DNA from: Mycobacterium sp.
GTDB lineage: Bacteria > Actinomycetota > Actinomycetes > Mycobacteriales > Mycobacteriaceae
DNA length: 64,000 bases
Direction of reading: 5' to 3'
NCBI GenBank assembly: GCA_003987775.1
Contig: RXJD01000087.1
Location: 1-64,000 of the forward strand
How positions within the stretch are numbered: the stretch's first letter is position 1; every line of letters begins with the position of its first letter. The notes under the pieces are model-generated. The model did not search any database and was not told where the DNA came from. It saw nothing but the letters and a program-made list of their open reading frames with translations. Of this stretch, positions 11,751 to 31,576 are shown piece by piece. The position numbers were made by a program, and so were the translations under genes.

Positions 11751-13058
11751 TTACCGTCCCGGCGGCGCCAACCGGTAGACAGCGCCCGCGTCGTCGTCGC
11801 TGATGTACACCGCACCGTCCGGCCCCACCACGGCGGCCACCGGGCGGCCCCATCGGGAACCGTCGTCGGTCTGGAAGCCACCCATCAGGGTCTGCTGGTC
11901 GCCGAGGCCGCCGTCGCGCCACGGGAAGAACGACACCTCGGGCGCGCGCGGCGGCTTGCGGTTCCACGACCCGTGAATGCCGACCAGCGCGCCGTCCGCA
12001 TACGGCGGCGGCAGCACGCCGGTGGTGAAGGACAAACCCAGTGGCGCCGAGTGAGCGCCCATGCTCTGCTCTACCGGCGGCAGGGTCTGGCAGTCCATCG
12101 CGGATCCGTCCTTGTTGGTCGACATGTCGCGCACGAACGGCAGATTCGCCGGCCCCCCGTCGGGATTGCAAAACGGCCAGCCCAGGTCGCGGCCGGACGT
12201 CAACCGTGCCAGTGACTCCGGCGGATGGTCGTTGACGTAGCCGACGTCGACGCGGCCCTGCGGGTCAGGCGTGTTGTCGCGGTTGTTGACCGCCGTCCAC
12301 ACCGAGCCGTCCGGGGCGACGGCAAGGCCGGTTCCGTTGCGCACCCCCGTCGCGAACGGCTGCGCCGGCCCGCCGCCGGGCGGAATCCGCATAATCGTCG
12401 CCCTGGGCGGGTTCGCGCCACGGTCCTGCGCCGTGATGTTTCCCGTCGAACCGATCGAGAAGTACACCCCTCCGTCGGGCCCGACGGTCACGCTCTTCAG
12501 CGCGTGCGCGTAGGCGCCGTGCAGATCGGGGCTGCGCGCATCAGGAAGACCGGCTGCGACGGTCCGGCCGTTGACGGCCCGGCCATCGGCGTAGTCGTAG
12601 GCGTCGATCTGATCGCTCTCCGCGACGTAGAGCGTCGAACCCGCGAATGCCATGCCGTGCGGCTGATCAAGACCTTCGAGCAGCGTCGACTGTCGGGGTG
12701 CGGCGCCAGGTGTCAACTCGACGATCTGCCCACGGCTCGGCACCGACACGAGCAGCGCGCCGTCGGGCGTCCATGTTTCCAAGCGCGCCTTAGGAATTCG
12801 CGCCCAGACGGCGATCGTCCAACCGTCGGGGATCAGCGCCTGGCGGGGCCGGTCCAGCGGTGCCTGCGCAAGATCGGGGGCCACGGCGACGGGAGCGGCC
12901 ACCAGCCTGCCTGACGCCGGCGCCGGAACCCCGGATGGGGATGCGGATTGTCGCGGATTCGAGCACCCCGCCAGCACAAGGATCACGATCAGGGAGATGG
13001 CCGGCAGTGCACGCGGCGGGACTCGCACGTCAGCAGGGATACCCGGGGCGACCGTCAT
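11751..13058 (-). CDS. Lipoprotein glucose/sorbosone-type dehydrogenase (PQQ beta-propeller)
   Basis: The 435-residue protein has a signal peptide with lipobox (LVLAGC) and a GSDH-type six-bladed propeller. Recognisable segments are HGMAFAGSTLYVAE, GVYFSIGSTGN, RNGTGLAVAPDGSVWTAVN, DLGWPFCNPDGGP, GSWNRKPP and a final GPDGAVYISDDDAGAVYRL blade. Relatives oxidise sugars at a quinone cofactor in the periplasm. The ATG at 13058 is preferred over the TTG/GTG codons just upstream. It is transcribed divergently from the MoxR gene (55 bp apart) and convergently with the DHFR-like gene. The substrate cannot be told from sequence. Confidence 0.86.
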   Translation of the reverse strand: MTVAPGIPADVRVPPRALPAISLIVILVLAGCSNPRQSASPSGVPAPASGRLVAAPVAVAPDLAQAPLDRPRQALIPDGWTIAVWARIPKARLETWTPDGALLVSVPSRGQIVELTPGAAPRQSTLLEGLDQPHGMAFAGSTLYVAESDQIDAYDYADGRAVNGRTVAAGLPDARSPDLHGAYAHALKSVTVGPDGGVYFSIGSTGNITAQDRGANPPRATIMRIPPGGGPAQPFATGVRNGTGLAVAPDGSVWTAVNNRDNTPDPQGRVDVGYVNDHPPESLARLTSGRDLGWPFCNPDGGPANLPFVRDMSTNKDGSAMDCQTLPPVEQSMGAHSAPLGLSFTTGVLPPPYADGALVGIHGSWNRKPPRAPEVSFFPWRDGGLGDQQTLMGGFQTDDGSRWGRPVAAVVGPDGAVYISDDDAGAVYRLAPPGR

Positions 13059-13113
13059 CAACACGAGCAAGCCGATGTGTGGCAGCCGGGCGCCCGGGTA
13101 TAAAGGCGGGCAT

Positions 13114-14115
13114 ATGACTACATCGCGAACGCAACCGGATCAGCGCGAGCTCGACGGCATCCGGCAGATCGTCGACGCCATCTCGGAGGCGTTCGCCGCA
13201 AAGATCGTCGGGCAGCCTGACCTGCGGGAATCGCTGCTGATCGGACTGCTCGCCGGTGGCCACGTCCTGCTGGAAAGCGTCCCCGGACTGGCCAAGACCA
13301 CCGCCGCCAAGGTGCTCGCCGAGTCCATCCACGGCCGCTTCCAACGCATCCAGTGCACCCCCGACCTGCTGCCCAGCGACATCATCGGCACGCAGATCTA
13401 CGACTCGGCGACGAGTTCGTTCGTCACCCAGCTGGGCCCGGTACACGCCAACGTCGTGCTGCTGGACGAGATCAACCGGTCCAGTGCCAAGACCCAGAGC
13501 GCCATGCTCGAGGCGATGGAGGAGCGCCAGACCACGATCGCCGGCCAGGTGCATCCACTCACCGACCCGTTCCTGGTCATCGCCACCCAGAATCCCGTCG
13601 ACCAGGAAGGCACCTATCCGCTCTCGGAAGCGCAGACCGACCGGTTCCTGCTCAAGGAGATCGTGCGCTACCCCTCGCCCGAGGAAGAGGTGGAGGTGAT
13701 GTCGCGGATCGACGCCGGGGTCTATGACACGCGGCGGACCGCCGCGCCCGTCGTCAGCCTCGATGACGTACTGCGTCTGCAGGACGTGGTTCGCCACGTC
13801 TACATGGACCGGGCGCTGATGCTGTATGCCAGCCAGCTGGTCGACGTGACCCGCCACCCCGGCAAGGCATTGCCCAAGCAGATCGCGCGCCTGGTCGAGT
13901 ACGGGGCCAGCCCGCGCGCGACGATCGCCTTCTGCAAAGCGGCGCGTGCCCAGGCGGTGCTGTCCGGGCGCGCCCACGTGCTGCCGGAGGACATCGCCAA
14001 GCTGGCGCACCGGGTGCTGCGGCACCGGCTCATCCTCGGATTCGAAGCCGCCAGTGCCAACGTCACTCCCGAGACCGTGATCGACGCCGCGCTGCGGGCC
14101 GTCCGGGTGCCCTGA
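13114..14115 (+). CDS. MoxR-family AAA+ ATPase
   Basis: The 333-residue protein has Walker A in LLESVPGLAKTTAAK (about residue 55), Walker B VLLDEINRSSAKTQ and sensor-1 VIATQNPVDQEGTYPLSEAQ, all characteristic of the MoxR family. MoxR ATPases act as chaperones for VWA-domain proteins encoded nearby. That fits here: a DUF58 protein and two VWA-like membrane proteins follow in the same direction with overlapping ends. The ATG at 13114 is the first sensible start. Mycobacteria have several moxR loci, and this six-gene arrangement does not clearly match moxR1, moxR2 or moxR3, so no symbol is given. Confidence 0.93.
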   Translation: MTTSRTQPDQRELDGIRQIVDAISEAFAAKIVGQPDLRESLLIGLLAGGHVLLESVPGLAKTTAAKVLAESIHGRFQRIQCTPDLLPSDIIGTQIYDSATSSFVTQLGPVHANVVLLDEINRSSAKTQSAMLEAMEERQTTIAGQVHPLTDPFLVIATQNPVDQEGTYPLSEAQTDRFLLKEIVRYPSPEEEVEVMSRIDAGVYDTRRTAAPVVSLDDVLRLQDVVRHVYMDRALMLYASQLVDVTRHPGKALPKQIARLVEYGASPRATIAFCKAARAQAVLSGRAHVLPEDIAKLAHRVLRHRLILGFEAASANVTPETVIDAALRAVRVP

Positions 14116-14124
14116 GTCCCGGCC

Positions 14125-14991
14125 TTGGGCAAACATCTCAACCGGGCCAAGGCGCACTTCGGCACCGACACCCGTGGTCTGCTCGAAGGCGGTCGCTACG
14201 CCCTGTCACACACGCGCAGCATGGAATTCGACGATCTGCGTCCATACGTTCCCGGCGACGACGTCCGCGACATCGACTGGAAGGCCTCGGCCCGCTCGGG
14301 CAGCGTCCTCATCAAACGATTCGTCTCCGAGAAACACCACAAGCTCCTGCTGGTCGCCGACGCCGGCCGCAATATGTCGGCACTGGCCCCCAGCGGCGAG
14401 TACAAGCGTGACGTCGCCGCGCACGTCATGGGTGCGATCGGCCTGATCGGCCTGCGCCGTTCCGATCAGATCGGGATGGTCTTCGGTGACAGCCGCGGTT
14501 CGGTGAACATCCCGCAGCGCCGCGGCGAAATGCACGTGGAGGGACTGCTGCACCGCTGGTACCAGCACTCCATGACCGGCCCCGGTCCCAGCCGCATCGC
14601 CGCTCAACTCGACTACGTCGCAACGCATTACCGCCACACCATGCTGATCGTCGTGGTCTCCGACGAACCCGATGTCGACGAGGAACTCAACGGAGTACTC
14701 ATCAGGTTGAGCGGGCGCCACGACATCCTCTGGGCGATGGTGTCGGACATGCCCGCGGTCGGTCCCGACAACACCGACGGCTACGACGTCGCCACTGGCC
14801 GCTTCGTCCTGAACGGCGCCGACCTCGGTCCGCGAGTCGTCGCCGCCTACCGCCGAGCCGAGGCCGCCCGGCGCGAGCGCCTCGCAAAGTTCCTGACCCG
14901 GCGGGCGATCACGCACGCCACGATCGCCGGCAGTGCTGACATCCGCCGCGAACTCGTCGGCCTGACCGAGGCGGCCGGCCGTGCCGGATGA
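14125..14991 (+). CDS. DUF58 domain protein
   Basis: The 288-residue protein contains the DUF58 core SMEFDDLRPYVPGDDVRDIDWKA (about residues 32-55), then a VWA-like fold with LLLVADAGRNM and a later LIVVVSDEPDVD strand. DUF58 proteins are standard companions of MoxR ATPases. There is no transmembrane helix, so it should be cytoplasmic, unlike the membrane DUF58 proteins of some other operons. The start is a TTG at 14125, 9 bp after the MoxR stop; no ATG or GTG fits the conserved N-terminus. Its end overlaps the next gene by 11 bp. Confidence 0.9.
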   Translation: MGKHLNRAKAHFGTDTRGLLEGGRYALSHTRSMEFDDLRPYVPGDDVRDIDWKASARSGSVLIKRFVSEKHHKLLLVADAGRNMSALAPSGEYKRDVAAHVMGAIGLIGLRRSDQIGMVFGDSRGSVNIPQRRGEMHVEGLLHRWYQHSMTGPGPSRIAAQLDYVATHYRHTMLIVVVSDEPDVDEELNGVLIRLSGRHDILWAMVSDMPAVGPDNTDGYDVATGRFVLNGADLGPRVVAAYRRAEAARRERLAKFLTRRAITHATIAGSADIRRELVGLTEAAGRAG

Positions 14992-19146: not shown

Positions 19147-19173
19147 TATGATAGACCGTTCGTACGGTTAGTC
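19147..19173 (+). promoter_or_regulatory. TetR promoter with palindromic operator (site 1)
   Basis: A TATGAT -10-like hexamer (19147-19152) is followed at once by GACCGTTCGTACGGTTAGTC (19154-19173), whose ACCG-N6-CGGT core is an inverted repeat. It ends 17 bp before the TetR start codon. Related palindromes occur at 19941, 20073 and 29991, so this is probably the autoregulatory operator. Confidence 0.7.
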
Positions 19174-19190
19174 TAAGCCGAAGGTGTCCA

Positions 19191-19862
19191 ATGCCCAGAC
19201 CGCCTGGCAGGCGTGGCGAGATCCTCGATGCGTTTGTCCGCTATGTCGCCGAACGTGGTTATGAGAGAACCAATATCGGTGACATCGCCGACGAACTCGG
19301 CATGTCGAAGGGCACCATCGTTCACCACTTCGGGACCAAAGCGCAGATGCTGCGCGAACTGGAAGAAACCCACCTCGCCAACCAACTCGACGTGCTGCGC
19401 ATGGTCTGGGACCGCGTATCCGCACCGCACGAGCGCATCGCCGCGATCATCTTCACCTCCGCGCTGCTGCAGGTGATGGCCCGCGACGCCACCGTCGCAA
19501 GCCAGCGCGAGGTGGTGCAGTTGTCCGAAGACCCGGCCATGCAACAGGTACGCAAGCTGCGCCACCAACTGCAGGCGCTCACCATCGATGAGATCCGCAA
19601 TGGAGTCGAATCCGGTGTATTCCGAAGCGTCGACGTCGATCTGGCTGCGCTGCAGCTGTGGGGATCGCTCGAGTGGATGTGGGTGTGGTTCGACCCCAAT
19701 GACTCTCGGACGCCCGAACGGGTAGGGGCCGCATTCGTGGATGTGTTCCTCGGCGGACTGCTGCTCGACCGGCTGGGGTTGACCAAGTGGGCGAGCCCGT
19801 CATCGGACGTCGTCTCAGTGGTGCGCGAATGCCTGACCGTGGTCACGAGCGGCCCGGGCTGA
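19191..19862 (+). CDS. TetR-family regulator of the adjacent mce operon
   Basis: The 223-residue protein has a TetR N-terminal domain (GRRGEILDAFVRYVAERGYERT, then helix-turn-helix NIGDIADELGMSKGTIVHHFGTK at about residues 30-52). A ligand/dimer domain ends with FVDVFLGGLLLDRLG. It lies upstream of yrbEA in the same direction with a 429-bp gap. Its own promoter and the yrbEA upstream region share the palindrome described at 19147, 19941 and 20071, so it is the best candidate for their repressor. It is a single TetR domain, unlike Mce3R, which is a tandem TetR fusion. Ligand unknown; a lipid or steroid is likely from context. Confidence 0.9.
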   Translation: MPRPPGRRGEILDAFVRYVAERGYERTNIGDIADELGMSKGTIVHHFGTKAQMLRELEETHLANQLDVLRMVWDRVSAPHERIAAIIFTSALLQVMARDATVASQREVVQLSEDPAMQQVRKLRHQLQALTIDEIRNGVESGVFRSVDVDLAALQLWGSLEWMWVWFDPNDSRTPERVGAAFVDVFLGGLLLDRLGLTKWASPSSDVVSVVRECLTVVTSGPG

Positions 19863-19940
19863 CTCGTCAGCGCACCGAAAACCTACGGCTAAAAGAACTT
19901 TGGCGTCGCGCGTGCGCGCCCGGCAACACCCGGTCTGATT

Positions 19941-19960
19941 GACTGTACGTGTAGTTAGTC
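19941..19960 (+). promoter_or_regulatory. TetR operator-like site 2 upstream of the mce operon
   Basis: GACTGTACGTGTAGTTAGTC matches site 1 at 15 of 20 positions and is preceded by TT, so a TTGACT -35-like hexamer overlaps its left end. It is 351 bp before yrbEA. The right half (GTAG) deviates from the CGGT arm, so this is the weakest of the four copies. Confidence 0.5.
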
Positions 19961-20070
19961 ACGGCGTATCGAGGCGCGCCCACCGAGGGTTATCCCGCCA
20001 TAAAACAGCAGGTCATTCACCACGATGAGGGCGCGGACACTCCTGCGCGTCATTCGGATCTCTGATTCTG

Positions 20071-20100
20071 TTGACTGCACGTACGGTCTAGTGACATAGT
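20071..20100 (+). promoter_or_regulatory. Putative mce operon promoter with TetR operator (site 3)
   Basis: TTGACT (20071-20076) and CATAGT (20095-20100) are 18 bp apart and can serve as -35 and -10. GACTGCACGTACGGTC (20073-20088), the same palindrome as sites 1 and 4, covers the -35 box and most of the spacer. Binding there would block RNA polymerase. Confidence 0.62.
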
Positions 20101-20106
20101 TGCGGC

Positions 20107-20295
20107 GTGGCGCAACCGTGGGCGGCATGGAGCCGAAGGGTGGGGACCGGGACTGTCGGTCACCCGCACCGCGTAACGCTGCGGCAGGGTGCGACGGCAG
20201 GCGCGCACCTCACTCGATCTCCCCGAAATACGCTGAGCAATAGTGGGTTTCACTGCGCTGCTCGGCCGGCCTCCGACGGAAGTTCGCGTCGATGA
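20107..20295 (+). CDS. Possible leaderless small ORF in the mce operon leader
   Basis: A GTG lies 6 nt after the proposed -10 box, the spacing of leaderless mycobacterial transcripts. It opens a 62-codon frame that ends in TGA overlapping the yrbEA ATG (ATGA at 20292-20295). The peptide (MAQPWAAWSRRVG at the start) is Arg/Ser-rich and resembles nothing known. If translated, it could couple translation into yrbEA. It may equally be chance; only its placement argues for it. Confidence 0.3.
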   Translation: MAQPWAAWSRRVGTGTVGHPHRVTLRQGATAGAHLTRSPRNTLSNSGFHCAARPASDGSSRR

Positions 20296-21086
20296 CCGCC
20301 TCGCACACCATGGCCCGCCGAGTGGGCAACAGGATACGGCCGGGCACCGAGGTGGCCGGCGGTTTCTTCCGGATGTGCGTGCTGACCGCCAAGGCACTGA
20401 AACGGCCCTTCGAATGGCGCGAATTCATCTGGATCGGCTGGTTTTTGATGCGGGTGTCGCTGCTGCCCACGATCGCGGTGTCGATCCCCGAAACCGTGCT
20501 GCTCATCTTCACACTCAACGTGCTGCTCGCCGAGTTCGGCGCGGCCGACGTCTCCGGGGCCGGTGCGGGCATCGGTGCCGTAACCCAGCTGGGCCCGATC
20601 GTGACGGTGCTGGTGGTCGCCGGCGCCGGGGGCACCGCCATCTGCGCCGACCTCGGGGCCCGCACCATCCGCGAGGAGATCGATGCCCTCGAAGTGCTCG
20701 GCATCGACCCGATCCACCGGCTGGTGCTGCCCCGCGTCGTCGCTTCGACCATCGTTGCGGTCCTGCTCAACGGCCTGGTGATTGCGGTCGGCCTGGGCGG
20801 CGGCTACCTGTTCAGCGTGTACCTGCAGAACGTCTCCAGCGGTGCCTATCTCTCCACATTGACCGCTCTCACCGGCCTGCCCGAAGTGGTGATCGCCAAT
20901 ATCAAGGCGGCCACGTTCGGATTGATCGCCGGCCTGGTCGGGTGTTACCGCGGGTTGATCGTCCGCGGCGGGTCCAAGGGTCTGGGCACCGCCGTCAACG
21001 AGACGGTGGTGCTGTGTTTCATCGCGCTGTTCGCGGTCAACGCGGCACTGACCACGATCGGCGTCAGATTCGGAACGGGGCGCTGA
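20292..21086 (+). CDS. yrbEA: YrbE/MlaE-family permease, first subunit of the mce transporter
   Basis: The 264-residue integral membrane protein belongs to the MlaE/YrbE permease family of Mce lipid importers. After a short cytoplasmic N-terminus, FEWREFIWIGWFLMRVSLLP leads into about five membrane helices. The conserved cytoplasmic loop GTAICADLGARTIREEIDALEVLGIDP (EExDALxVxG motif) contacts the MlaF-type ATPase, which is encoded elsewhere in mycobacteria. It begins the cluster yrbEA-yrbEB-mceA-F, with only 1 bp before yrbEB. The mce locus number cannot be told from sequence alone. Confidence 0.93.
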   Translation: MTASHTMARRVGNRIRPGTEVAGGFFRMCVLTAKALKRPFEWREFIWIGWFLMRVSLLPTIAVSIPETVLLIFTLNVLLAEFGAADVSGAGAGIGAVTQLGPIVTVLVVAGAGGTAICADLGARTIREEIDALEVLGIDPIHRLVLPRVVASTIVAVLLNGLVIAVGLGGGYLFSVYLQNVSSGAYLSTLTALTGLPEVVIANIKAATFGLIAGLVGCYRGLIVRGGSKGLGTAVNETVVLCFIALFAVNAALTTIGVRFGTGR

Positions 21087-21087
21087 T

Positions 21088-21948
21088 ATGGCAACGGCCG
21101 CAACACATCTCAAGCTGCCCCGGGCAAACCTCGGTCGATACGGCGAAGCCCCGGTCAAGCTGTTGCTGGAGATCGGGCAGATGGTCTGGTTCGCGGTGAC
21201 GGCGGTCGCCCAGATTCCGTTCGCCCTGCGCCGCTACCCCAAAGAGCTGATACGCATGGTCGCCCAGATGGGGATGGGGACGGGTGCGATGGCCGTGGCC
21301 GGCGGCACGGCCGCCATCGTCGGGTTCATCACCCTATCCGCGGGTTCGCTGGTCGCCATCCAGGGTTACGCGTCGCTGGGGAATATCGGTGTCGAGGCCT
21401 TCACCGGCTTTCTGGCCGCCATGGTCAATGTCCGGTTCGTGGCGCCGGTGGCCGCCGGTCAGGCGCTGGCAGCAACGGTGGGTGCTGGCGCCACCGCCGA
21501 ACTGGGCGCCATGCGCATCAGCGAAGAGATCGACGCGCTCGAGGTGATGAGTGTCAGGTCGGTCGCTTTCCTGGCGTCCACCCGGGTGGTGGCGGGTCTC
21601 ATCGTCATCGTCCCGCTTTACGCGTTGGGGATCACCATGGCCTTCGTGTCCACGCAGGTCACCACCGTCTTTTTGTACGGACAGTCCGCCGGTACGTACA
21701 ACCACTACTTCCACACCTTCCTGCGCCTCAACGACGTCGGCTGGTCGTTCGCCGAGGTGATCCTGGTGGCGTTGGTTGTGATGACCACCCACTCCTACTA
21801 CGGCTACACCGCCCACGGCGGGCCGGTCGGCGTCGGTGAAGCGGTCGGCCGGTCGATGCGGCTGTCGCTGATCACCATCGTCGTCGTGGTCGTGCTGACC
21901 GCGATGGCCGTCTACGGCAAAAACCCGAACTTCAATCTCACGGTGTAG
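21088..21948 (+). CDS. yrbEB: YrbE/MlaE-family permease, second subunit
   Basis: The 286-residue paralogue of YrbEA has the same membrane layout and the same coupling loop, here ELGAMRISEEIDALEVMSVRS (about residues 130-150). YrbEA and YrbEB are thought to form a heterodimeric channel under the Mce needle. There is 1 bp between the two genes and 5 bp before mceA, so all are in one transcript. The C-terminus ends with a long hydrophobic helix (LITIVVVVVLTAMAVYG). No unusual feature seen. Confidence 0.93.
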   Translation: MATAATHLKLPRANLGRYGEAPVKLLLEIGQMVWFAVTAVAQIPFALRRYPKELIRMVAQMGMGTGAMAVAGGTAAIVGFITLSAGSLVAIQGYASLGNIGVEAFTGFLAAMVNVRFVAPVAAGQALAATVGAGATAELGAMRISEEIDALEVMSVRSVAFLASTRVVAGLIVIVPLYALGITMAFVSTQVTTVFLYGQSAGTYNHYFHTFLRLNDVGWSFAEVILVALVVMTTHSYYGYTAHGGPVGVGEAVGRSMRLSLITIVVVVVLTAMAVYGKNPNFNLTV

Positions 21949-21953
21949 CCGAC

Positions 21954-23261
21954 ATGACCATGCCGGTGAAGGAGAACCCGCCACGCATCCCGCCCTACAA
22001 GACCGCGGCGGTGGTCTTCATGGTGGTGTTCTCCGTGGTGCTGGGACTCGTCTGGTTTCAGTTCCGGGGCAAGCTGACGCCGAAGACGCCGTTGACGATG
22101 GTGGCCCCCCGGGCCGGCCTGGTGATGGACCCGGGATCGAAGGTCACCTACAACGGGGTGGAAATCGGTCGTGTCACCAACATTTCGGAGATCCAACGCG
22201 ACGGCGTGCCGGTGGCGAAGTTTTCTATGGAAGTCAATCCGGAGTACATCAGGCTGATTCCGGCCAATGTGGAGGCCAACATCAAGGCCACCACCGTGTT
22301 CGGCAACAAGTACGTGTCGCTGACCTCGCCGAAAAATCCGACACCACAGCGAATTTCATCGAAGACCGAGATCGATGCGAGGTCGGTGACCACCGAGTTC
22401 AACACCCTGTTCGAGACCCTCACCGCGATCGCGGAGAAGGTGGATCCGATCAAGCTGAATCTGACGTTGTCCGCGGCCGCGCAGGCCCTGGCCGGACTGG
22501 GCGACAAGTTCGGCCAGTCGATTGTCAACGCCAATGCCATCCTCGACGACATCAACCCCCGGATGCCGCAGGTACGGCACGACATTCAACAGCTCGCCGC
22601 CTTGGCCGACACCTACAACAACGCCGCGCCGGATCTCTTCGACGCGCTCGACCACGCGGTGGTCACCGCGCGCACGCTGCACCGCCAGGAAGCCGAACTG
22701 GATTCGGCGTTGCTGGCCGCCGCCGGCTTGGGAGACACCGGTGCAGACATCTTCACCCGGGGTGGTCCCTACCTGCAGCGCGGCATCTCCGATCTACTGC
22801 CCACCGCCCAGCTGTTCGACGCCTACAGCCCCGAAATCTTCTGCACGATCAGGAATTACCGCGACGCCGAGCCGGCGGCATATGCGACGACGGGCGGTGG
22901 TAACGGCTACGGACTGAAAACCATGACCGAACTGACATCCGGGCTGGGTGGCATTCTGACGCTGCCCGGGCTGACCGGCGCGGTGCTCTCGCAGGGACTC
23001 CTGGGCGTGGCCGGACTGGTCGGCGGCGCACCCAATCCCTATACCTATCCGGAGAATCTGCCCCGGGTGAACGCCCGTGGCGGACCGGGCGGCGCGCCAG
23101 GCTGCTGGCAGCCGATCAATCACGACTTCTGGCCGGCGCCGAGCCTGGTGGTGGACACCGGCGCCAGCCTCGCACCGTACAACCACGTGGACACCGGCTC
23201 GCCATACGCGCTTGAGTACGTGTGGGGCCGCCAAGTCGGGGACAACACGATCAACCCATGA
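21954..23261 (+). CDS. mceA: MceA-type substrate-binding protein
   Basis: The 435-residue protein has an N-terminal membrane anchor (AAVVFMVVFSVVLGLVWFQF) and an MlaD/Mce domain (about residues 40-120) with GLVMDPGSKVTYNGVEIGRVTNI. A long helical segment follows, then a C-terminal half with a Gly/Pro-rich stretch and two Cys (FCTIRNYRD, GCWQPINHD). Mce proteins A-F assemble into a tubular hexamer that carries lipids across the periplasm. The stop overlaps the mceB ATG (ATGA). Gene order identifies it as the A paralogue. Confidence 0.92.
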   Translation: MTMPVKENPPRIPPYKTAAVVFMVVFSVVLGLVWFQFRGKLTPKTPLTMVAPRAGLVMDPGSKVTYNGVEIGRVTNISEIQRDGVPVAKFSMEVNPEYIRLIPANVEANIKATTVFGNKYVSLTSPKNPTPQRISSKTEIDARSVTTEFNTLFETLTAIAEKVDPIKLNLTLSAAAQALAGLGDKFGQSIVNANAILDDINPRMPQVRHDIQQLAALADTYNNAAPDLFDALDHAVVTARTLHRQEAELDSALLAAAGLGDTGADIFTRGGPYLQRGISDLLPTAQLFDAYSPEIFCTIRNYRDAEPAAYATTGGGNGYGLKTMTELTSGLGGILTLPGLTGAVLSQGLLGVAGLVGGAPNPYTYPENLPRVNARGGPGGAPGCWQPINHDFWPAPSLVVDTGASLAPYNHVDTGSPYALEYVWGRQVGDNTINP

Positions 23262-24298
23262 AAATCACCGGCAGCGCAATCAAACTCGGCATCGTCTCCC
23301 TGGTGCTGTCCCTGATCGTCGTGTCGATCGTGGTGGTGTTCGCTCAGATGCGTTTCATCAGCACCAACACGTATTCCGCGGAGTTCGCCAACGGCAGCGG
23401 CCTGAAAGACGGCCAGTTCGTGCGTGCCTCCGGAGTGGAGATCGGCAAGGTCAAATCCGTCAACCTGATCGATGGTGGCAACCGGGTGCGAGTCGACTTC
23501 GCCATCGACCGCTCGATCCAGCTGTACCAGTCGACCACCGCGCAGATCCGCTATCTCGACCTGCTCGGCAACCGCTTCGTCGAGCTCAAGCGGGGGATGG
23601 GTGACGGAGCAGATCAGATCCTGCCGGCAGGCGGACTGATTCCGCTGTCCCGGACTACACCGGCCCTGGACCTCGACGCGCTGATCGGTGGCTTCAAGCC
23701 GTTGTTCAAAGCCTTGGAACCAGACAAGGTCAACACCATCGCCTCGTCGATCATCACCGTGTTCCAGGGCCAGGGCGGAACGATCAACGACATCCTCGAC
23801 CAGACCGCGCAGCTCACGTCGCAGATCGCCGAACGCGACCAGGCGATCGGTGAGGTGGTCAAGAACCTGAACATCGTGCTGGACACCACGGTCCGGCATC
23901 GCCAGGAGTTCGACGAAACGGTGGACAACTTCGAAAGGTTGATCACCGGTCTGCAGAACCACGCCGACCCGCTGGCCACCGGACTGGCCAACATCAGCAA
24001 CGCCGCCGGCACGGTGTCGGAACTCCTGGCGGACAACCGCGCGCTGCTGCACAAGGAGATCAACTACCTGCAGGCCTTCCAGCAGCCGCTGATCGATCAG
24101 CGCGACCAGCTCAGCGACCTGATCCACAAGACCCCCACCGCGCTGAACCTGATCGGGCGCAGCATCGGTCTCTACGGCGACTGGGTCAACTTCTACGTCT
24201 GTGACCTCTCGATCCGGTGGAACGGATTGCAGGGCGGCGGTCCGGTTCGCACGGTCCGGATCTGGCAGCAGCCGACGGGCAGGTGCACGCCCCAATGA
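23258..24298 (+). CDS. mceB: MceB-type substrate-binding protein
   Basis: The ATG at 23258 overlaps the mceA stop (ATGA). The 346-residue product has an anchor (IKLGIVSLVLSLIVVSIVVVF) and a Mce domain with FANGSGLKDGQFVRASGVEIGKV. The long coiled region that forms the Mce needle follows, with QTAQLTSQIAERDQAIGEVVKN as a clear heptad-type stretch. The end, CDLSIRWNGLQGGG, is typical of MceB proteins, which are the shortest in the set. It overlaps mceC by ATGA. Confidence 0.92.
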   Translation: MKITGSAIKLGIVSLVLSLIVVSIVVVFAQMRFISTNTYSAEFANGSGLKDGQFVRASGVEIGKVKSVNLIDGGNRVRVDFAIDRSIQLYQSTTAQIRYLDLLGNRFVELKRGMGDGADQILPAGGLIPLSRTTPALDLDALIGGFKPLFKALEPDKVNTIASSIITVFQGQGGTINDILDQTAQLTSQIAERDQAIGEVVKNLNIVLDTTVRHRQEFDETVDNFERLITGLQNHADPLATGLANISNAAGTVSELLADNRALLHKEINYLQAFQQPLIDQRDQLSDLIHKTPTALNLIGRSIGLYGDWVNFYVCDLSIRWNGLQGGGPVRTVRIWQQPTGRCTPQ

Positions 24299-25716
24299 GG
24301 ACACTCACCGAATTCAACCGCAACCGCGTCGGCCTGATGGGCATCGGGGTGCTGGTGCTCGTCGTCCTCGTCGGTCAGAGTTTCACCAGCGTGCCGATGA
24401 TGTTCGCGGCCCCGGTCTTCTACGGGCAGTTCACCGAATCGGGTCAGTTGAACAAAAACGACAAGGTGCGCATCACCGGGGTCAATGTCGGAAAAGTGGA
24501 GGGCATCGAGGTCGAGGGCGACCACGTCCTGGTGAAATTCTCCATCGGCGCCAACACCATCGGCACCGAAAGCCGGCTGGCGATCAAGACGGACACCATC
24601 CTGGGTAAGAAAGTACTCGAGATCGAGCCGCGGGGAGCCAAGGTCCTGCGGCCCGGCGGGGTGCTGCCGCTGGGCCAAAGCACGACGCCCTATCAGCTCT
24701 ACGACGCGAACTTCGACATCACCAGGGCCGCAACCGGATGGAACATCGACACCGTCAAACAATCGCTGAATGTGCTGTCTGAGACCATCGATCAGACCTA
24801 CCCGCACATCAGCGCCGCGCTCGACGGCGTGGCCAGGTTCTCCGACACCATCGGCAAACGCGATGACGAGATCAAACATCTGCTCGCGCAAGCCAACCAG
24901 GTGGCCAGCGTGCTCGGCGACCGCAGCGAGCAGATCAACCGGTTGCTGGTCAACGCCAAGACGCTGCTGGTCGCGTTCAACGAACGCGGCCGGGCCATCG
25001 ACGCTCTGCTGCAGAATATTTCGGGCGTCGCGGCGCAGATCAAGGGCTTCATCAACGACAACCCGAACCTGAACGCGGCGCTGGAGCAACTGCACGCCCT
25101 GACCGACGTGCTGGTGCAGCGCAAGGACGACCTTGCTCAAACGCTCACGTTCGTCAGCCAATTCGCGGCCGGGCTGGGCGAGTCCGTCGCGTCGGGACCG
25201 TTCTTCAAGATCGTCCTGTCCAACCTACTGCCGTACTGGATGCTGCAGCCGTTCGTCGATGCCGCGTTCAAGAAGCGCGGTCTGGATCCGGAAGAATTCT
25301 GGCGTAGCGCGGGCCTGCCCGCATTCCGCTTCCCCGATCCCAACGGCACCCGGTTCCCCAACGGCGCACCGCCACCCGCGCCGCAGGTACTGGAGGGCAC
25401 CCCGGAGCATCCCGGACCGGCCGTCCCGCCGGGATCGGCGTGCTCGTACACACCGGCGCCTGATGCGCTGCCCCGGCCGTGGAATCCGTTGCCCTGCGCG
25501 GGCGTTGACGTCGGCCCGTTCGGCGGCAGCTTCCCGGCCCCCCTCGATGTGCAGGCGTCGCCGCCGAATCCCAACGGCGTGCCCCCGACGCCGGGAATCC
25601 CGATCGCGGGGCGGCCGGGTGAGCCGCCCCCGGATGTCCCGGGCACGCCGGTGCCGCTGCCGCCCAACGCGCCGCCCGGAGCGCGCACCGAAGGTACGAC
25701 GGGAGGCCAGAGTTGA
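24295..25716 (+). CDS. mceC: MceC-type substrate-binding protein
   Basis: The ATG at 24295 overlaps the mceB stop. The 473-residue protein has an anchor (NRVGLMGIGVLVLVVLVGQSF) and a Mce domain with FTESGQLNKNDKVRITGVNVGKV (about residues 45-125). A helical needle segment follows, with NQVASVLGDRSEQINRLL, and then a Pro-rich C-terminal tail of about 110 residues (VPPTPGIPIAG, PPPDVPGTPVPLPP). Pro-rich tails are usual for MceC and MceD. The stop overlaps the mceD TTG (TTGA). Confidence 0.92.
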   Translation: MRTLTEFNRNRVGLMGIGVLVLVVLVGQSFTSVPMMFAAPVFYGQFTESGQLNKNDKVRITGVNVGKVEGIEVEGDHVLVKFSIGANTIGTESRLAIKTDTILGKKVLEIEPRGAKVLRPGGVLPLGQSTTPYQLYDANFDITRAATGWNIDTVKQSLNVLSETIDQTYPHISAALDGVARFSDTIGKRDDEIKHLLAQANQVASVLGDRSEQINRLLVNAKTLLVAFNERGRAIDALLQNISGVAAQIKGFINDNPNLNAALEQLHALTDVLVQRKDDLAQTLTFVSQFAAGLGESVASGPFFKIVLSNLLPYWMLQPFVDAAFKKRGLDPEEFWRSAGLPAFRFPDPNGTRFPNGAPPPAPQVLEGTPEHPGPAVPPGSACSYTPAPDALPRPWNPLPCAGVDVGPFGGSFPAPLDVQASPPNPNGVPPTPGIPIAGRPGEPPPDVPGTPVPLPPNAPPGARTEGTTGGQS

Positions 25717-27296
25717 GCAACGGTTTCGCTTTTCCCAAGCCGAAGCTGCGTAGCGTGGTCGCAACGGTCGTCGTGATCGTCGGCCTGGTCGCCGCCTTCG
25801 TCGGCTGGCAGCTCTACCAGAAGATGAGCAACAACACCGTGGTCGCCTATCTGCCTGCGGCGATCGCGCTGTACTCCGGCGACAAAGTCCAGATCATGGG
25901 CGTACGTGTCGGTGCCATCGACTCCATCGAACCGGCCGGCGACAAGATGAAGGTGACGTTTCACTACGCCAACAAGTACAAGGTGCCGGCCAACGCGTCG
26001 GCGGTGATCGTGAACCCAACTCTGGTGGCGTCCCGCAGTATTCAGCTGGAGCCGCCCTACCGGGGCGGTCCGGTGATGTCCGATCACGCGGTGATTCCCA
26101 TCGAGCGCACGCAGGTGCCGACGGAATGGGATGAACTGCGCGCCAGCGTCGCCAACATCATCGACAAGCTGGGCCCCACACCCGAGCAGCCCAAGGGCCC
26201 GTTCGGTGACCTGATCGAGTCTTTCGCCGACGGGCTGGCCGGCAAGGGCAAGCAGTTCAACACCACGCTGGACAGCCTGTCGCGGGCGCTGACCGCGCTG
26301 AACCAAGGCCGGGGTGACTTCTTCGCGGTGGTGCGCAGTCTGGCGCGGTTCGTCAACGCCCTGCACAAGGACGACAAGCAGTTCGTCGCGTTGAACACCA
26401 ACCTGGCCCAATTCACCGACAGACTGACCAGTTCCGACCGCGCGCTCGCCGATGCCATTCAACAGTTCGACGGGTTGCTCGCCACGCTGCGGCCGTTCCT
26501 GACCGAGAACCGCGAGGTGCTCGCCCAGGATGTCGGCAACCTCGCCACCCTGACCACCACGCTGGTCCAGCCCGAACCACTCAACGGTTTGGAAACCGCC
26601 CTGCACGTGTTGCCGACATTGGAGACCAACCTCAGCCAGATCTACCACCCGTCCCACGGCGCGGTCATGTCGATCCCGGCCATCCCGAACTTCGCCAACC
26701 CAATGCAGTTCATGTGCAGCATGATTCAGGCCGGTAGCCGCCTGGGCTACCAGGATTCGGCGGAGCTGTGCGCGCAGTACCTGGCGCCGGTGCTCGACGC
26801 GATCAAGTTCAACTATCTGCCCTTCGGGCTGAATTTGTTCAGCACCGCCGAGACGCTGCCCAAAGAGGTCGCCTACTCCGAAACCCGTTTGCAACCGCCG
26901 AACGGCTACAAGGACACCACGGTTCCGGGGATATGGGTGCCCGACACCCCGTTGTCGCACCGCAACACCCAGCCCGGCTGGGTGGTTGCGCCGGGCATGC
27001 AGGGTACCCAGGTGGGGCCGATCACGGCGGGCCTGCTGACCCCCGAATCCCTGGCCGAACTGATGGGCGGCACGGACATCGCACCACCAGAGTCGGGGCT
27101 GCAGACCCCGCCCGGTCCGCCGAACGCGTACGACGAATACCCGGTGTTGCCGCCGATCGGCCTGCAGGCGCAGGTGCCCATTCCACCGCCGCCGCCCGGG
27201 CCGGGCGTAGTCCCGGGGCCGGCCGCACCGATGCCCGCGGCTCCCGGTCCACCCTTGCCCGCGGAAGCGGCCGTGGCGACAGGGGCCGGCTCGTGA
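25713..27296 (+). CDS. mceD: MceD-type substrate-binding protein
   Basis: A TTG start at 25713 overlaps the mceC stop. The 527-residue product has an anchor (LRSVVATVVVIVGLVAAFVGW), a Mce domain with YSGDKVQIMGVRVGAIDSIEPAG, a long helical segment and a Pro-rich tail (IPPPPPGPGVVPGPAAP). It is the longest of the set, as expected for MceD. The use of TTG is decided by the overlap and the lack of another codon before the membrane anchor. The stop overlaps the mceE GTG (GTGA). Confidence 0.9.
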   Translation: MSNGFAFPKPKLRSVVATVVVIVGLVAAFVGWQLYQKMSNNTVVAYLPAAIALYSGDKVQIMGVRVGAIDSIEPAGDKMKVTFHYANKYKVPANASAVIVNPTLVASRSIQLEPPYRGGPVMSDHAVIPIERTQVPTEWDELRASVANIIDKLGPTPEQPKGPFGDLIESFADGLAGKGKQFNTTLDSLSRALTALNQGRGDFFAVVRSLARFVNALHKDDKQFVALNTNLAQFTDRLTSSDRALADAIQQFDGLLATLRPFLTENREVLAQDVGNLATLTTTLVQPEPLNGLETALHVLPTLETNLSQIYHPSHGAVMSIPAIPNFANPMQFMCSMIQAGSRLGYQDSAELCAQYLAPVLDAIKFNYLPFGLNLFSTAETLPKEVAYSETRLQPPNGYKDTTVPGIWVPDTPLSHRNTQPGWVVAPGMQGTQVGPITAGLLTPESLAELMGGTDIAPPESGLQTPPGPPNAYDEYPVLPPIGLQAQVPIPPPPPGPGVVPGPAAPMPAAPGPPLPAEAAVATGAGS

Positions 27297-28438
27297 AAGC
27301 CCGAATCCGCCCGGCGCTGGCCATCTTCGTCTGCACCCTGACACTCACGTCGTGCGCGAGTTGGCGTGGCGTGGCGAACATTCCGATGCCCGGCGGTCCG
27401 GGTAGCGGGTCCGGCTCCTACACCGTGTACGTGCAGATGGCCGACACTCTGGCCCTCAATACCAACAGCCGGATCCGGGTCGCCGACGTGTTCGTCGGCA
27501 CGGTCCGCGCGATCCAATTGAAGAACTGGGTAGCGACGCTGACCCTTCGACTGGACAAGGGCGTCAAACTACCGCGGAACGCGACGGCCAAGATCGGGCA
27601 GACCAGCCTGCTGGGCTCACAGCACATCGAACTGGCCGCGCCACCCGATCCGTCTCCCGAGCCGCTGCGGCCGGGAGACACCATCCCGCTGAAGAATTCG
27701 TCGACCTATCCGACGACCGAGCAGACACTGGCCAGCCTGGCCATGATCTTGCGCGGGGGCGGAGTGCCGAACGTGGAAGTGTTGCAGAACGAGGTCTACG
27801 ACATCGTGCACGGTCGGGCCAACGAGCTCAGAGCATTCCTCGGCAAACTCGACACGTTCACCGCCCAACTCGACGAGCAACGCGACGACATCACCCGGGC
27901 GATCGATTCCACCAACCGGCTGTTGGGCTACGTGGGCCGGCGCTCGGACGTTCTGAACCGGGTGCTCACCGAATTCCCGCCACTGCTCAAACATTTCGCG
28001 GACAAGCAGAACCTGCTGATCAATGCGGTCGACTCGGTAGGGCGGCTCGGCGGCGTCGCCAACCAGTATCTGTCTCCGTCGCGGGGCGATCTGCACCAGG
28101 ACCTTGTTGCGCTGCAGTGTCCGTTACGGGAGTTCGGCCGCGGCGCACCGTATCTGATCCAGGCGCTGAAGCTGATGCTGGTCCGGCCGTTCGACGTCGA
28201 CTCCGTGCCCAAGGCGTTCCGCGGCGACTACTTCAACCTGTCGCTGACGCTCGACCTCACCATGAGCGCCGTCGACAACGCCGTCCTCACCGGGACGGGC
28301 TTCTCTGGAGCCCTGCGCGCACTGGAACAATCCTGGGGCCGTGACCCGGAAACGATGATCCCCGACGTCCGGTACACGCCCAACCCCAATGACGCCCCGG
28401 GCGGCCCGCTGGTCGAAAGGGCGGACAGGCAATGCTGA
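27293..28438 (+). CDS. mceE: MceE-type lipoprotein (Lpr-like) of the mce complex
   Basis: From the GTG at 27293 the 381-residue protein has a short signal peptide and lipobox (LTLTSC), as MceE proteins usually have, so it should be lipid-anchored. The Mce domain follows (NTNSRIRVADVFVGTVRAIQLKN), then the needle helices (LRAFLGKLDTFTAQLDEQRDDIT). Two Cys lie near the C-terminus (CPLREFG and the terminal DRQC). It overlaps mceD by GTGA and mceF by 7 bp. Confidence 0.93.
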   Translation: MKARIRPALAIFVCTLTLTSCASWRGVANIPMPGGPGSGSGSYTVYVQMADTLALNTNSRIRVADVFVGTVRAIQLKNWVATLTLRLDKGVKLPRNATAKIGQTSLLGSQHIELAAPPDPSPEPLRPGDTIPLKNSSTYPTTEQTLASLAMILRGGGVPNVEVLQNEVYDIVHGRANELRAFLGKLDTFTAQLDEQRDDITRAIDSTNRLLGYVGRRSDVLNRVLTEFPPLLKHFADKQNLLINAVDSVGRLGGVANQYLSPSRGDLHQDLVALQCPLREFGRGAPYLIQALKLMLVRPFDVDSVPKAFRGDYFNLSLTLDLTMSAVDNAVLTGTGFSGALRALEQSWGRDPETMIPDVRYTPNPNDAPGGPLVERADRQC

Positions 28439-29982
28439 CCCGCTTGATCTGGCGCCAGATATTCCTGTTCACTCTGATCAGTCTGGTCACGGCAATCGCG
28501 TTGGGCTGGTACTACTTACGGATCCCCACCGCTGCGGGCGTCGGCCAGTACACGCTGAACGCCACCCTGCCCGTATCGGGTGGTCTGTACAAGACGGCCA
28601 ACGTGACCTATCGCGGGGAAACCATCGGCACGGTCACTTCCGTCGAGCCGACCGAGAACGGCGCGCTGGTGCGGATGAGCATCGCGGACCGCTTCAAAAT
28701 CCCGGTCGACGCGTCGGCGAACGTCCGTTCCATGTCGGCGGTCGGCGAGCAGTATCTGGACCTGGTGTCTTCGGGCAATCCGGGCCGGTATTTCGCGGCG
28801 GGACAGACCATCACGAAAGGCAGCGTGCCCAGCGAGATCGGGCCGGCGCTGGACGCCGCCAACCGGGGCCTGGCCGCGTTGCCCACCGGCAAGATCCCGC
28901 AATTGCTCGACGAAACAGCCGAAGCCGTCGGTGGATTGGGCCCTGCGCTGCAGCGGCTCGTCGACGCGACGCAGGCGATCGCCGGCGACTTCAAGGCCAA
29001 CATCTCCGACATCGACGACATCATCCAGAACTCGGGTCCGGTCATCGACAGCCAGGTCACCTCGGGCGACGCGATCGGACGCTGGTCGCACAACCTGGAC
29101 ACGCTGGCCGCGCAGGCCGCGGAAAATGACCCACACGTACAGAGCATTCTGAACCAGGCGACGCCGACGACCGATCTGGTGAACGCCGTGTTCAACGATG
29201 TTCGCGAGTCGTTCCCGCAGACGCTGGCGAACCTGGAGATCGTGCTGGAAATGCTCAAGCGCTATCACAAGGGCGTCGAGCAACTGCTGGTCGCCTATCC
29301 GCAGGGCGCGTCGGAAGGCCAGACGGTGACATCGGCCTTTCCTGGGTTCGCCTCGCTGGGCACGCACCTGACCATCAACCAGCCGCCGCCGTGTCTGACC
29401 GGCTTCCTGCCGGCGCCGCAGTGGCGGTCCCCGGCAGACACCAGCCTGCAACCGATGCCGTCGGGCACGTATTGCAAGATCCCGCAGGACACTCCGTCCA
29501 ATGCCGTACGCGGAGCGCGCAACCTGCCATGTGTCGATGTGCCGGGTAAACGCGCTGCGACGCCACGCGAATGCCGCGACTCCAAACCCTATGAGCCACT
29601 GGGCACCAACCCCTGGTACGGCGACCCGAACCAGATCCTGACCTGCCCGGCAGCCGCCGCTCGATGCGACCAGCCGGTCAAGCCGGGGCAGGTGATCCCG
29701 GCTCCGTCGATCAACAACGGCATGAACCCCGCTCCGGCCGATCGGGTACCCGGCACGCCACCACCGGTCAGTGACCCGCTGTCGCGGCCGCATTCCGGTT
29801 CGGTGGTGTGCAACGGCCAACAGCCAAATCCCTGCGTCTACACCGGAAATGAGCCTCCGGTAGCCGTCTACAGTCCACAGAGCGGTGAACTGGTCGGACC
29901 GGACGGGGTCAGGTACACCGTCGAGAATTCCACGCGCACCGGAGACGACGGATGGCGGGGCATGCTGTCGCCGCACAACTGA
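28432..29982 (+). CDS. mceF: MceF-type substrate-binding protein, last gene of the mce operon
   Basis: The 516-residue protein has an anchor (IFLFTLISLVTAIALGWYYL) and a Mce domain with LPVSGGLYKTANVTYRGETIGTV. A helical needle part follows, then a long C-terminal region with several Cys (PPPCLTGF, TYCKIPQD, LPCVDVPG, VVCNGQQPNPCVYTGN). These Cys-containing tails are typical of MceF. No mce-associated (mas) genes follow; the stop is 1 bp before the TTGACA of the next promoter, so the operon ends here. Confidence 0.93.
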   Translation: MLTRLIWRQIFLFTLISLVTAIALGWYYLRIPTAAGVGQYTLNATLPVSGGLYKTANVTYRGETIGTVTSVEPTENGALVRMSIADRFKIPVDASANVRSMSAVGEQYLDLVSSGNPGRYFAAGQTITKGSVPSEIGPALDAANRGLAALPTGKIPQLLDETAEAVGGLGPALQRLVDATQAIAGDFKANISDIDDIIQNSGPVIDSQVTSGDAIGRWSHNLDTLAAQAAENDPHVQSILNQATPTTDLVNAVFNDVRESFPQTLANLEIVLEMLKRYHKGVEQLLVAYPQGASEGQTVTSAFPGFASLGTHLTINQPPPCLTGFLPAPQWRSPADTSLQPMPSGTYCKIPQDTPSNAVRGARNLPCVDVPGKRAATPRECRDSKPYEPLGTNPWYGDPNQILTCPAAAARCDQPVKPGQVIPAPSINNGMNPAPADRVPGTPPPVSDPLSRPHSGSVVCNGQQPNPCVYTGNEPPVAVYSPQSGELVGPDGVRYTVENSTRTGDDGWRGMLSPHN

Positions 29983-30013
29983 TTGACACTGACCGGACGT
30001 ACGGTCATATAAT
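29983..30013 (+). promoter_or_regulatory. Promoter of the Phd-repeat gene with TetR operator (site 4) in its spacer
   Basis: TTGACA (29983-29988) and TATAAT (30008-30013) are perfect -35 and -10 consensus boxes, 19 bp apart. GACCGGACGTACGGTC (29991-30006), a palindrome (GACCG-N6-CGGTC) of the same family as sites 1-3, lies wholly between them. The promoter begins 1 bp after the mceF stop. Confidence 0.75.
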
Positions 30014-30059
30014 GATCGGGTAGCCGGCGGTGCCCGGTGCGTTCGAGGATCGAGGTGAG

Positions 30060-30515
30060 ATGCCGGAAGTGATTGGCCTGGGCCAACTCCGGAGTGATGC
30101 CTGCGCGTACCTCGAACGGGTCGCCGCCGGTGAGACACTCGATATCGTCCGCCGCGGCAAGCTGGTTGCGCACCTCCAGCCGGTCGGTGACTGGCGGGTG
30201 GCTCCGATCCCAGCCCGTTCCGTCAACGCTGCGGAGCGGGGTTGGGTCGGTCTCGACGAACTGCGGACCCGCGCCGGGCGGTGCTTCGACCGGGTGACTG
30301 GTGGCGAGTCCCTCTATGTGGTCCGCGGCGGCCGGATTCTGGCCCGCATCGTCGCAGCCGGTGCGGCCGCGGTGCCGGCGGATGCCGGTCAGCGCATCGA
30401 ACTCGACGAGCTGCGGAATCGCGCGGGCCGCTACATCGATAGGGCCGCGGCGGGCCAGACCATCGAGGTCAGTCGCGGCGGCAAGGTCGTCGCTCGCATC
30501 GTGTCCGTCGCCTGA
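30060..30515 (+). CDS. Protein of three tandem Phd/YefM-type antitoxin-like repeats
   Basis: The ATG at 30060 (ribosome-binding site GAGGTGAG) gives 151 residues built from three repeats of about 50: IGLGQLRSDACAYLERVAAGE, VGLDELRTRAGRCFDRVTGGE and IELDELRNRAGRYIDRAAAGQ. Each is followed by a short strand ending in GKLVAHL, GRILARI or GKVVARI. This is the N-terminal, DNA-binding part of Phd/YefM antitoxins (strand, helix, then RxGRxxARI strand), here three times. There is no toxin gene beside it. It lies just after mceF behind a promoter bearing the TetR palindrome, so it may be a DNA-binding regulator tied to the mce locus. Confidence 0.82.
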   Translation: MPEVIGLGQLRSDACAYLERVAAGETLDIVRRGKLVAHLQPVGDWRVAPIPARSVNAAERGWVGLDELRTRAGRCFDRVTGGESLYVVRGGRILARIVAAGAAAVPADAGQRIELDELRNRAGRYIDRAAAGQTIEVSRGGKVVARIVSVA

Positions 30516-31111: not shown

Positions 31112-31576
31112 GTGGCCACTGCACGGAAGCGCGATACGCTCGACTCGATCAGCGCGACCATTGCGCGGATCATGCGGCTGAGCGGTAGTAGGGCGATGTT
31201 CAAGCGGCAGGCCGCCGCCGCGGCGGTGGAGCTGTCGCAACCCTCCTACGTCCTGCTGCGGGTGCTGGCCGATGAGGGGCCGTTGCCGATGGGCCGGCTG
31301 GCGCGCCTGGCACACATGGATCTGGGCATGGCCGCCCGGCGGGTGCAGAGTCTGGAGAACGACGGGATGGTCGTCAGGCAGTCGGATCTGGAAGATGCCC
31401 GCAAGACCCTGGTGGAAGCCACCGGGGCGGGCGAACGGGCTGCGCGCGCCCTGCAGGACGTGCGCCGTGAACACTTGGCACGGGCACTGGCGCAGTGGTC
31501 GGCTGCCGACCTGCGTCAGTTCGACCGGCTGCTGTCCCGCTTCCTCGCCGACACCACCGTGACCTCAATCGACTGA
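31112..31576 (+). CDS. MarR-family regulator
   Basis: The 154-residue protein has a winged helix of the MarR type: LSQPSYVLLRVLADEGPLPMGRLARLAHMDLGMAARRVQSLENDGMVVR, then SDLEDARKTLVEATGAG, the wing. The N- and C-terminal helices form the dimer. The start is a GTG at 31112 behind the palindrome and -10 described at 31085. Its end overlaps the convergent F420-type oxidoreductase by 12 bp. The shared palindrome suggests it controls itself and the oxidoreductase/sulfotransferase pair. Ligand unknown. Confidence 0.88.
   Translation: MATARKRDTLDSISATIARIMRLSGSRAMFKRQAAAAAVELSQPSYVLLRVLADEGPLPMGRLARLAHMDLGMAARRVQSLENDGMVVRQSDLEDARKTLVEATGAGERAARALQDVRREHLARALAQWSAADLRQFDRLLSRFLADTTVTSID

Follow-up and report, generated by a model that had tools for sequence, protein, structure and literature searches.

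Does one TetR-family regulator control both an mce operon and a gene for a Phd-repeat protein, as well as its own gene? The question is raised by a 64,000-nucleotide stretch of Mycobacterium sp. DNA (GenBank assembly GCA_003987775.1, contig RXJD01000087.1, positions 1 to 64,000, forward strand), which we call the window. A first-pass annotation of the window had aligned four palindromes there and proposed that they are operators of the TetR protein encoded between the first two. Our comparison supports this regulon: candidate sites are kept at the three promoters in relatives, follow TetR across genera and are altered or absent in two orthologues with an altered recognition helix. We therefore hold it very likely, on sequence evidence, that TetR is a local repressor of its own gene, the mce operon and the triple-Phd gene through a shared palindrome. 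The data also support the view that this arrangement of TetR, mce operon and Phd gene under one palindrome is kept across many mycobacterial species.

Four palindromes stand out from the window and the genome

All four 16-bp palindromes are present as first described and align without gaps (starts 19154, 19941, 20073 and 29991). The regulator gene and the putative operators are as follows.

19154..19169, plus strand: putative operator O1 (autoregulation), scoring at least 15 bits in the loci of 51 of 53 relatives
19191..19862, plus strand: tetR, TetR-family regulator, 223 amino acids, PF00440 and PF17932 (TetR_C_24)
19941..19956, plus strand: putative operator O2, distal, probably auxiliary, 132 bp before O3; at least 12.5 bits in 26 of 51 relatives
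20073..20088, plus strand: putative operator O3, main mce operator; mce upstream region with a site in 50 of 51 relatives
29991..30006, plus strand: putative operator O4, between the phd -35 and -10; present in 29 of the 41 relatives that have phd behind mceF

These are the sole matches above 20 bits in a matrix scan of the window (scores 21.3-23.4). We also scored each site with a matrix built from the other three and compared it with 100 first-order Markov sequences of 64 kb. The mean chance rate per 64 kb was 0.03 for 19154, 0.16 for 19941, 0.00 for 20073 and 0.00 for 29991. The four sites are beyond chance expectation.

By this leave-one-out measure 19941 is the weakest copy and the only one matched by another window position, 2452. 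The word there, GACTGCTCGTACGTTC, scores 16.1 bits and lies inside a reverse-strand open reading frame (ORF; 1839-2720), and a comparison of the 320 bp around it with 4-kb stretches of three close relatives, taken at the corresponding distance, found nothing homologous. We rejected 2452 as a further target because it lies inside a called ORF and lacks a counterpart in near relatives. The earlier statement that the palindrome occurs only at the three promoters is thus nearly exact, this weaker match being the exception. A loose IUPAC pattern with three mismatches showed no enrichment in the window (53 matches against 67.4 expected), so the signal is confined to close matches.

Across the whole genome (7.29 Mb, 114 contigs), two IUPAC patterns found 48 distinct places, five of which score at least 20 bits. 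Four are the window sites and the fifth lies within a heme-oxygenase gene (C96:115335). The latter has no counterpart among the matches of the four nearest relatives, and it was rejected as a further target on this ground and for its position inside a Pfam-named gene.

The palindrome is kept where TetR is kept

TetR orthologues, defined by an E value of 1e-60 or better, were found in 59 of the 396 Mycobacterium genomes searched, own genome included. We compared the loci of 53 of the 58 relatives, using a matrix built from the window's four sites alone and a threshold of 15 bits. Of 53 relatives, 51 had a site in the 250 bp before tetR (the misses were L113 and, at 9.5 bits, L159); 50 of 51 had one between tetR and yrbEA (L144 reached 14.9 bits), and 29 of 41 had one in the 300 bp before a phd downstream of mceF. 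As background, mce coding sequence from 48 loci gave 3 matches in 452,928 bp. Symmetric column-permuted matrices (n = 300) matched on average 0.20, 0.18 and 0.14 loci at the tetR, mce and phd positions, respectively.

Counting the two strands apart, the pattern RACYGNNCGTACRGTY had 170 matches in the 59 genomes with TetR (58 of the 59 genomes) versus 24 for a reversed control pattern. In 59 genomes without TetR, it had 21 matches (15 genomes) versus 30 for the control. Each of the four nearest relatives (G006, G119, G202, G227) has exactly 3 matches, all in this locus. Among the places listed, 11 were away from the locus; a further two were phd-type words on another contig (G050, G271), and two lay in a second copy of the locus (G247). 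The scan of the genome and its relatives that the first-pass annotation had called for therefore finds a motif that is not scattered, tracks TetR and is kept at the three promoters in relatives.

The second copy in G247 (L209, G247:C11, 1-2800) carries yrbEA (87%), yrbEB (79%), a tetR remnant in two pieces and palindromes at 1988 and 2737.

Three sites lie on or beside core promoter elements

We assigned -35 and -10 elements by consensus, with the relatives aligned on the site.

19147..19152, plus strand: predicted tetR -10, TATGAT, one base before O1; TATGATA directly before O1 conserved (52 loci)
20071..20076, plus strand: predicted mce -35, TTGACT, overlapping O3; TTGACT conserved (51 loci)
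20095..20100, plus strand: predicted mce -10, CATAGT, with TG(A) before it, an extended -10; TGCcATAGT conserved (51 loci)
29983..29988, plus strand: predicted phd -35, TTGACA, conserved in relatives (29 loci)
30008..30013, plus strand: predicted phd -10, TATAAT; TATAcT conserved, as TTGACA-[O4]-TATAcT (29 loci)

The extended -10 of the mce promoter sits 18 bp after TTGACT. O1, O3 and O4 thus appear to be placed where a repressor would block RNA polymerase. An operator at the regulator's own core promoter elements that is kept in orthologues is the pattern of an autoregulated local repressor of the KstR or BkaR type.

From these positions we infer that a TetR dimer binds GACYGNNCGTACRGTY-type palindromes, represses three promoters and responds to a ligand. 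The tetR promoter would be blocked by the operator just past its -10, yrbEA-yrbEB-mceA-F by the operator over the -35 and spacer, perhaps aided by the distal copy, and the triple-Phd gene by the operator between -35 and -10. With ligand present, TetR would release the DNA, and importer, Phd-repeat protein and regulator would be made together.

O2 differs from the other three sites. The copy at 19941, which had been counted as an operator upstream of yrbEA, is present, but around it the site alone is conserved, and its spacing to O3 ranges from 85 to 286 bp in relatives. O2 looks auxiliary because there is no conserved promoter around it and the distal copy reaches 12.5 bits in only 26 of 51 relatives. 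Alternatively, O2 may be a decayed or chance copy without function, leaving the regulon to O1, O3 and O4 alone. We regard this as quite possible, if doubtful: the same occurrence and variable spacing, the missing promoter and the weakest leave-one-out rate (0.16 per 64 kb) all fit it, but the distal copy scores at least 21 bits in 16 relatives, for example GACTGTACGTATAGTC.

The leader after the mce -10 (window 20100-20140) is conserved in sequence among relatives. We considered a conserved leader hairpin and rejected it: 51 of 52 sequences form some hairpin (at least 4 pairs in 26 nucleotides), but positions and pairings differ and no consistent structure emerges.

The triple-Phd gene lacks the site in 12 of 41 relatives

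The third candidate target encodes a short protein of repeated units.

30060..30515, plus strand: predicted triple Phd-repeat protein, 151 amino acids from ATG, three Phd/VapB-type N-terminal units; open frame from GTG 30030

The ATG at 30060 is more likely to be the start than the GTG at 30030; an ATG-started frame occurs in 41 of the 43 loci with a phd match, one of them just 57 amino acids long. The gene lies behind mceF in 41 of 53 relatives, while the tested genes further downstream vary by species. In L157, phd sits instead beyond tetR and divergent to it, with palindromes separating the two.

The proposal that this gene belongs to the regulon is supported by an O4 counterpart in 29 relatives; the other 12 of the 41 lack one. 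Counting the window, 30 loci have the operator, and in these the mceF stop and the conserved IGLGQLR of Phd are 88-338 bp apart; where the operator is missing, in 12 loci, the distance is 25-123 bp. Seven operator-less loci (L112, L127, L142, L145-L148) have gaps of 25-32 bp. Such a gap leaves little room for a promoter plus an operator, so that in these relatives phd probably rides on the mce transcript. In the other five (L122 and L138, 77 bp; L151, 87 bp; L111, 107 bp; L144, 123 bp) this is only possible. With 7 of 12 close and 5 of 12 at 77-123 bp, the idea that phd is joined to mceF in nearly all operator-less relatives is weakened. On a quick tree of TetR, YrbEA, YrbEB and MceC, the phd-operator label needs at least 3 changes, and 10 of the 12 operator-less loci fall in one group.

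A search expression found three repeats in 14 of 21 aligned Phd proteins, and most of the others also have three by eye. Fewer are present in L112, L154, L157 and L159, so the number varies from one to three. An AlphaFold model built with 21 sequences (mean predicted local distance difference test score 78.9, predicted template modelling score 0.58) has three similar beta-alpha-alpha-beta-beta units. With Foldseek, one unit matched the VapB46 N-terminal domain over 43 columns (template modelling score 0.90 by target, E 0.011, probability 1.00), and Phd was also matched; no match of the model reached E 0.001. Pfam, together with the model and fold match, places the protein with the Phd/YefM-type N-terminal domains, and we infer from the model that it may have a DNA-binding role. 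One repeat unit fits the VapB46 N-terminal domain among the VapB46/Phd antitoxins (PDB 6jqy, 3hs2, 4zlx). Unlike these antitoxins, the window protein combines three such units in a single chain, and no toxin gene was found next to its own. Searched with Pfam only, 10 neighbouring genes of the window and four relatives, and two further window ORFs, contained no toxin family, and the locus thus does not have the antitoxin-with-adjacent-toxin layout of a type II toxin-antitoxin system.

Homologues of the Phd protein also occur without TetR. Among the 59 genomes lacking the regulator, a full-length homologue was found in G030 (57%), on a 7-kb contig on which no mce gene was found, and short single-repeat matches were found in G008, G026, G028 and G059; the other 54 had no homologue at E 1e-6. 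A different mce operon in G148 is followed by a homologue with two repeats.

Is the gene a toxin-antitoxin remnant that sits downstream of mceF by happenstance? The likeness of each repeat to a Phd/VapB antitoxin N-terminal domain and the varying repeat number would suit such an origin. We nevertheless find it unlikely, although well within reason, since no toxin family was seen among the tested neighbours, phd stays behind mceF while the genes downstream of it differ, the G148 homologue follows another mce operon, and the ATG-started frame is so widely kept, with a single copy cut to 57 amino acids.

After the Phd gene, the window encodes a short protein matching Mycobact_memb (PF05423; 30654-31040) and then a MarR regulator at 31112.

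The palindrome follows TetR into other genera

Outside Mycobacterium, we examined loci from Amycolatopsis (2), Nocardia (4), Nocardioides, Antrihabitans and Gordonia. In 9 of 9 the matched tetR start is preceded, at 42-52 bp, by a palindrome, which scores at least 15 bits in seven and 13.9 bits in two. Eight further genomes of other genera in the order were scanned with a seven-site matrix, and 6 have a palindrome of at least 15 bits; of the other two, L218 has a weak one and L219 has none.

The recognition helix is SKGTIVHHFGTK in 17 of 17 site-bearing orthologues of one set compared and in 8 of 8 of a second. L219, with the helix VHHYGTK, has no palindrome. In L159 (G148:C14) the helix is SQGTIVYHFGSK, and a palindrome with the same ends and a different centre, GACTG[CA]ATGCGCAGTC, lies 34 bp before the tetR match and also just before an acyl-coenzyme A (acyl-CoA) dehydrogenase gene. 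The distant homologue L022, with the helix VHFYGTK, has no 15-bit site in its 3.6 kb. These cases suggest a helix-operator code rather than prove it, because they are few.

We surveyed the genes behind the sites at a threshold of 17 bits, with a simple ORF caller and no shuffle control, in nine loci: the eight from other genera that are left when Gordonia is set aside, and Mycobacterium L158. There were 37 sites: 27 between called genes, 8 at gene starts and 2 inside a called ORF of L102, for which the homologous L100 stretch is at a gene start or between genes. Pfam families behind the sites or in the same run include zinc alcohol dehydrogenases, aldehyde dehydrogenases, alpha/beta hydrolases, AMP-binding ligases, enoyl-CoA hydratases and a thiolase, along with P450s, a GMC oxidoreductase, WS/DGAT, ferredoxin-type reductases, APH-type kinases, a luciferase-type monooxygenase and an ABC ATPase. 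Esterase and acyl-CoA ligase genes are among those that the palindrome marks in other genera. In 4 of 4 Nocardia loci a site precedes yrbEA of an mce operon that is not of the mce1 type, its YrbEA being 36-41% to the window's and 56-59% to the own paralogue on C40. We found no importer beside the TetR-operator pair in one Mycobacterium and in Amycolatopsis.

If the palindromes were operators of another regulator encoded elsewhere, TetR would be a mere neighbour. In favour of this, G034 lacks an orthologue but has similar palindromes close to a distant TetR homologue. It is nevertheless very improbable: the palindrome count tracks TetR presence across 118 genomes, the palindrome accompanies tetR into other genera where the neighbouring genes differ, and in two cases a changed recognition helix goes with a changed or missing palindrome.

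In that genome (L212 of G034, 12955-13960), a GACCGTGCGTACGGTT palindrome lies upstream of a different type of mce operon (YrbEA 75% to own C95), about 12 kb from the distant TetR homologue (34%); another palindrome lies at L211 5023.

More broadly, one TetR-operator pair may have been kept across several actinobacterial families while its importer was swapped (mce1-type in Mycobacterium, another type in Nocardia). In Mycobacterium, it may have gained a toxin-free triple-Phd array that acts together with the Mce importer, for instance as an additional DNA-binding regulator or a locus organiser. We offer this tentatively, as a plausible picture that we would not yet back.

Several observations weigh against a regulon under TetR as described here. 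Some permuted matrices matched many loci (maxima of 48, 15 and 28), probably as permutations close to the motif, and the L113 site before tetR has just 14.9 bits. L218 keeps the recognition helix yet has only a 10.6-bit site before tetR, and the altered helices of L219 and L159 are one case each. About half of the relatives have a weak O2 or none. The phd operator is missing from 12 of 41 relatives, no phd turned up in the stretches examined of L131, L139, L140, L149, L156 and L158, and the five gaps of 77-123 bp overlap the low end of the operator-bearing range. The guess at the ligand, for its part, is limited by a match of TetR to KstR2 that is barely above the next one.

TetR compared with known regulators of mce operons and other TetR proteins

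TetR has both domains expected of its family past the cut-off (PF00440, 5.4e-14; PF17932, 7.6e-18). Its orthologues in M. gordonae strains are 92 and 94% similar, which places the window in a Mycobacterium close to M. gordonae. Among solved structures its best sequence match is KstR2 (PDB 4w97, 4w1u; 77 bits, residues 6-191, too low to show orthology), followed by 3vpr (75 bits); the match to 9b7y is weak (4.2e-06). It is not of the Mce3R form, with 223 amino acids and one TetR_N versus a tandem double chain of 406.

KstR2 binds an acyl-CoA. The ligand of the window's TetR is most likely an acyl-CoA or a like intermediate derived from a fatty acid, ester or alcohol that is imported, which is a guess based on the KstR2 match, the mce1-type importer and the alcohol, aldehyde, ester and acyl-CoA catabolic genes that the operator marks in other genera. 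Some TetR proteins are activators, but activation at some of these promoters is likewise very improbable, given that O1, O3 and O4 overlap the core promoter elements, fall between them or adjoin them, a repressing position.

TetR repressors of mce operons are known. Mce3R of M. tuberculosis is likewise a TetR-type repressor of an mce operon, mce3 (PMC2277422, PMC11667970), but it is a double TetR with a non-palindromic site, whereas the window has a single TetR, a 16-bp palindrome and a Phd gene in the putative regulon. KstR (PMC1995591) is an autoregulated TetR whose palindrome TnnAACnnGTTnnA overlaps its own -10 and whose regulon includes mce4. That regulon is a large, genome-wide lipid regulon under another palindrome, whereas the one proposed here is local, with three units. 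BkaR (PMC3920632) is also a mycobacterial TetR that regulates its own gene within a local regulon, with a few conserved palindromes in promoters close by; it differs in its motif, GTTA(N)T(N4)A(N)TAAC, and in acting on branched-chain keto-acid genes. Mce1R and Mce2R are named as fatty-acid-linked regulators in PMC10843139, and a motif survey covers 30 divergently oriented mycobacterial TetRs (PMC4482099; compared here without its logos).

Within the papers searched, we found no report of this regulator, palindrome or Phd-mce-TetR system. Searched as text, the operator letters gave an unrelated occurrence only, a search that motifs shown as logos would escape. The regulator, its operator, the mce1-type target and the triple-Phd gene without a toxin found beside it thus appear to be new.

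To our knowledge, a regulator or substrate has been assigned to few of the mce operons found outside M. tuberculosis. One mce1-type importer here gains a candidate regulator, a set of putative operators and a clue to its substrate, the last because the same operator in other genera precedes alcohol, aldehyde, ester and acyl-CoA genes. The proposed third target is unusual, in that it would link an importer with a triple-Phd protein that has no toxin partner found beside it.

Upstream of tetR, the window encodes a MoxR-type AAA ATPase followed by a DUF58 protein (12997-14991).

The putative target operon is of the mce1 type

The operon has the actinobacterial mce layout, two yrbE permease genes followed by six mce genes (20292-29982).

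20292..21086, plus strand: yrbEA, permease (MlaE family), mce1 type
21088..21948, plus strand: yrbEB, permease (MlaE family)
21954..23261, plus strand: mceA, best solved match chain A of 8fed
23261..24298, plus strand: mceB
24298..25716, plus strand: mceC
25713..27296, plus strand: mceD
27296..28438, plus strand: mceE
28432..29982, plus strand: mceF

YrbEA and MceA match the chains of the Mce1 complex best (PDB 8fed; also 8fee, 8fef). By sequence, the operon is classed as mce1-type, closest to Mce1 among the mce types compared (M. tuberculosis mce2 and mce3 were outside the comparison). M. tuberculosis has four mce operons (PMC1810536), and fadD5 is linked to mce1 (PMC1810536, PMC2867952). At E 1e-20, the window's own genome has 12 YrbEA-like matches, one of which is the window's. 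Apart from that one, the closest YrbEA is 78%, and the gene upstream of it is, by eye, an acyl-CoA ligase, as fadD5 is in mce1. We take that operon to be mce1 and the window's to be a further copy. Plasmid records held 2 partial mce matches.

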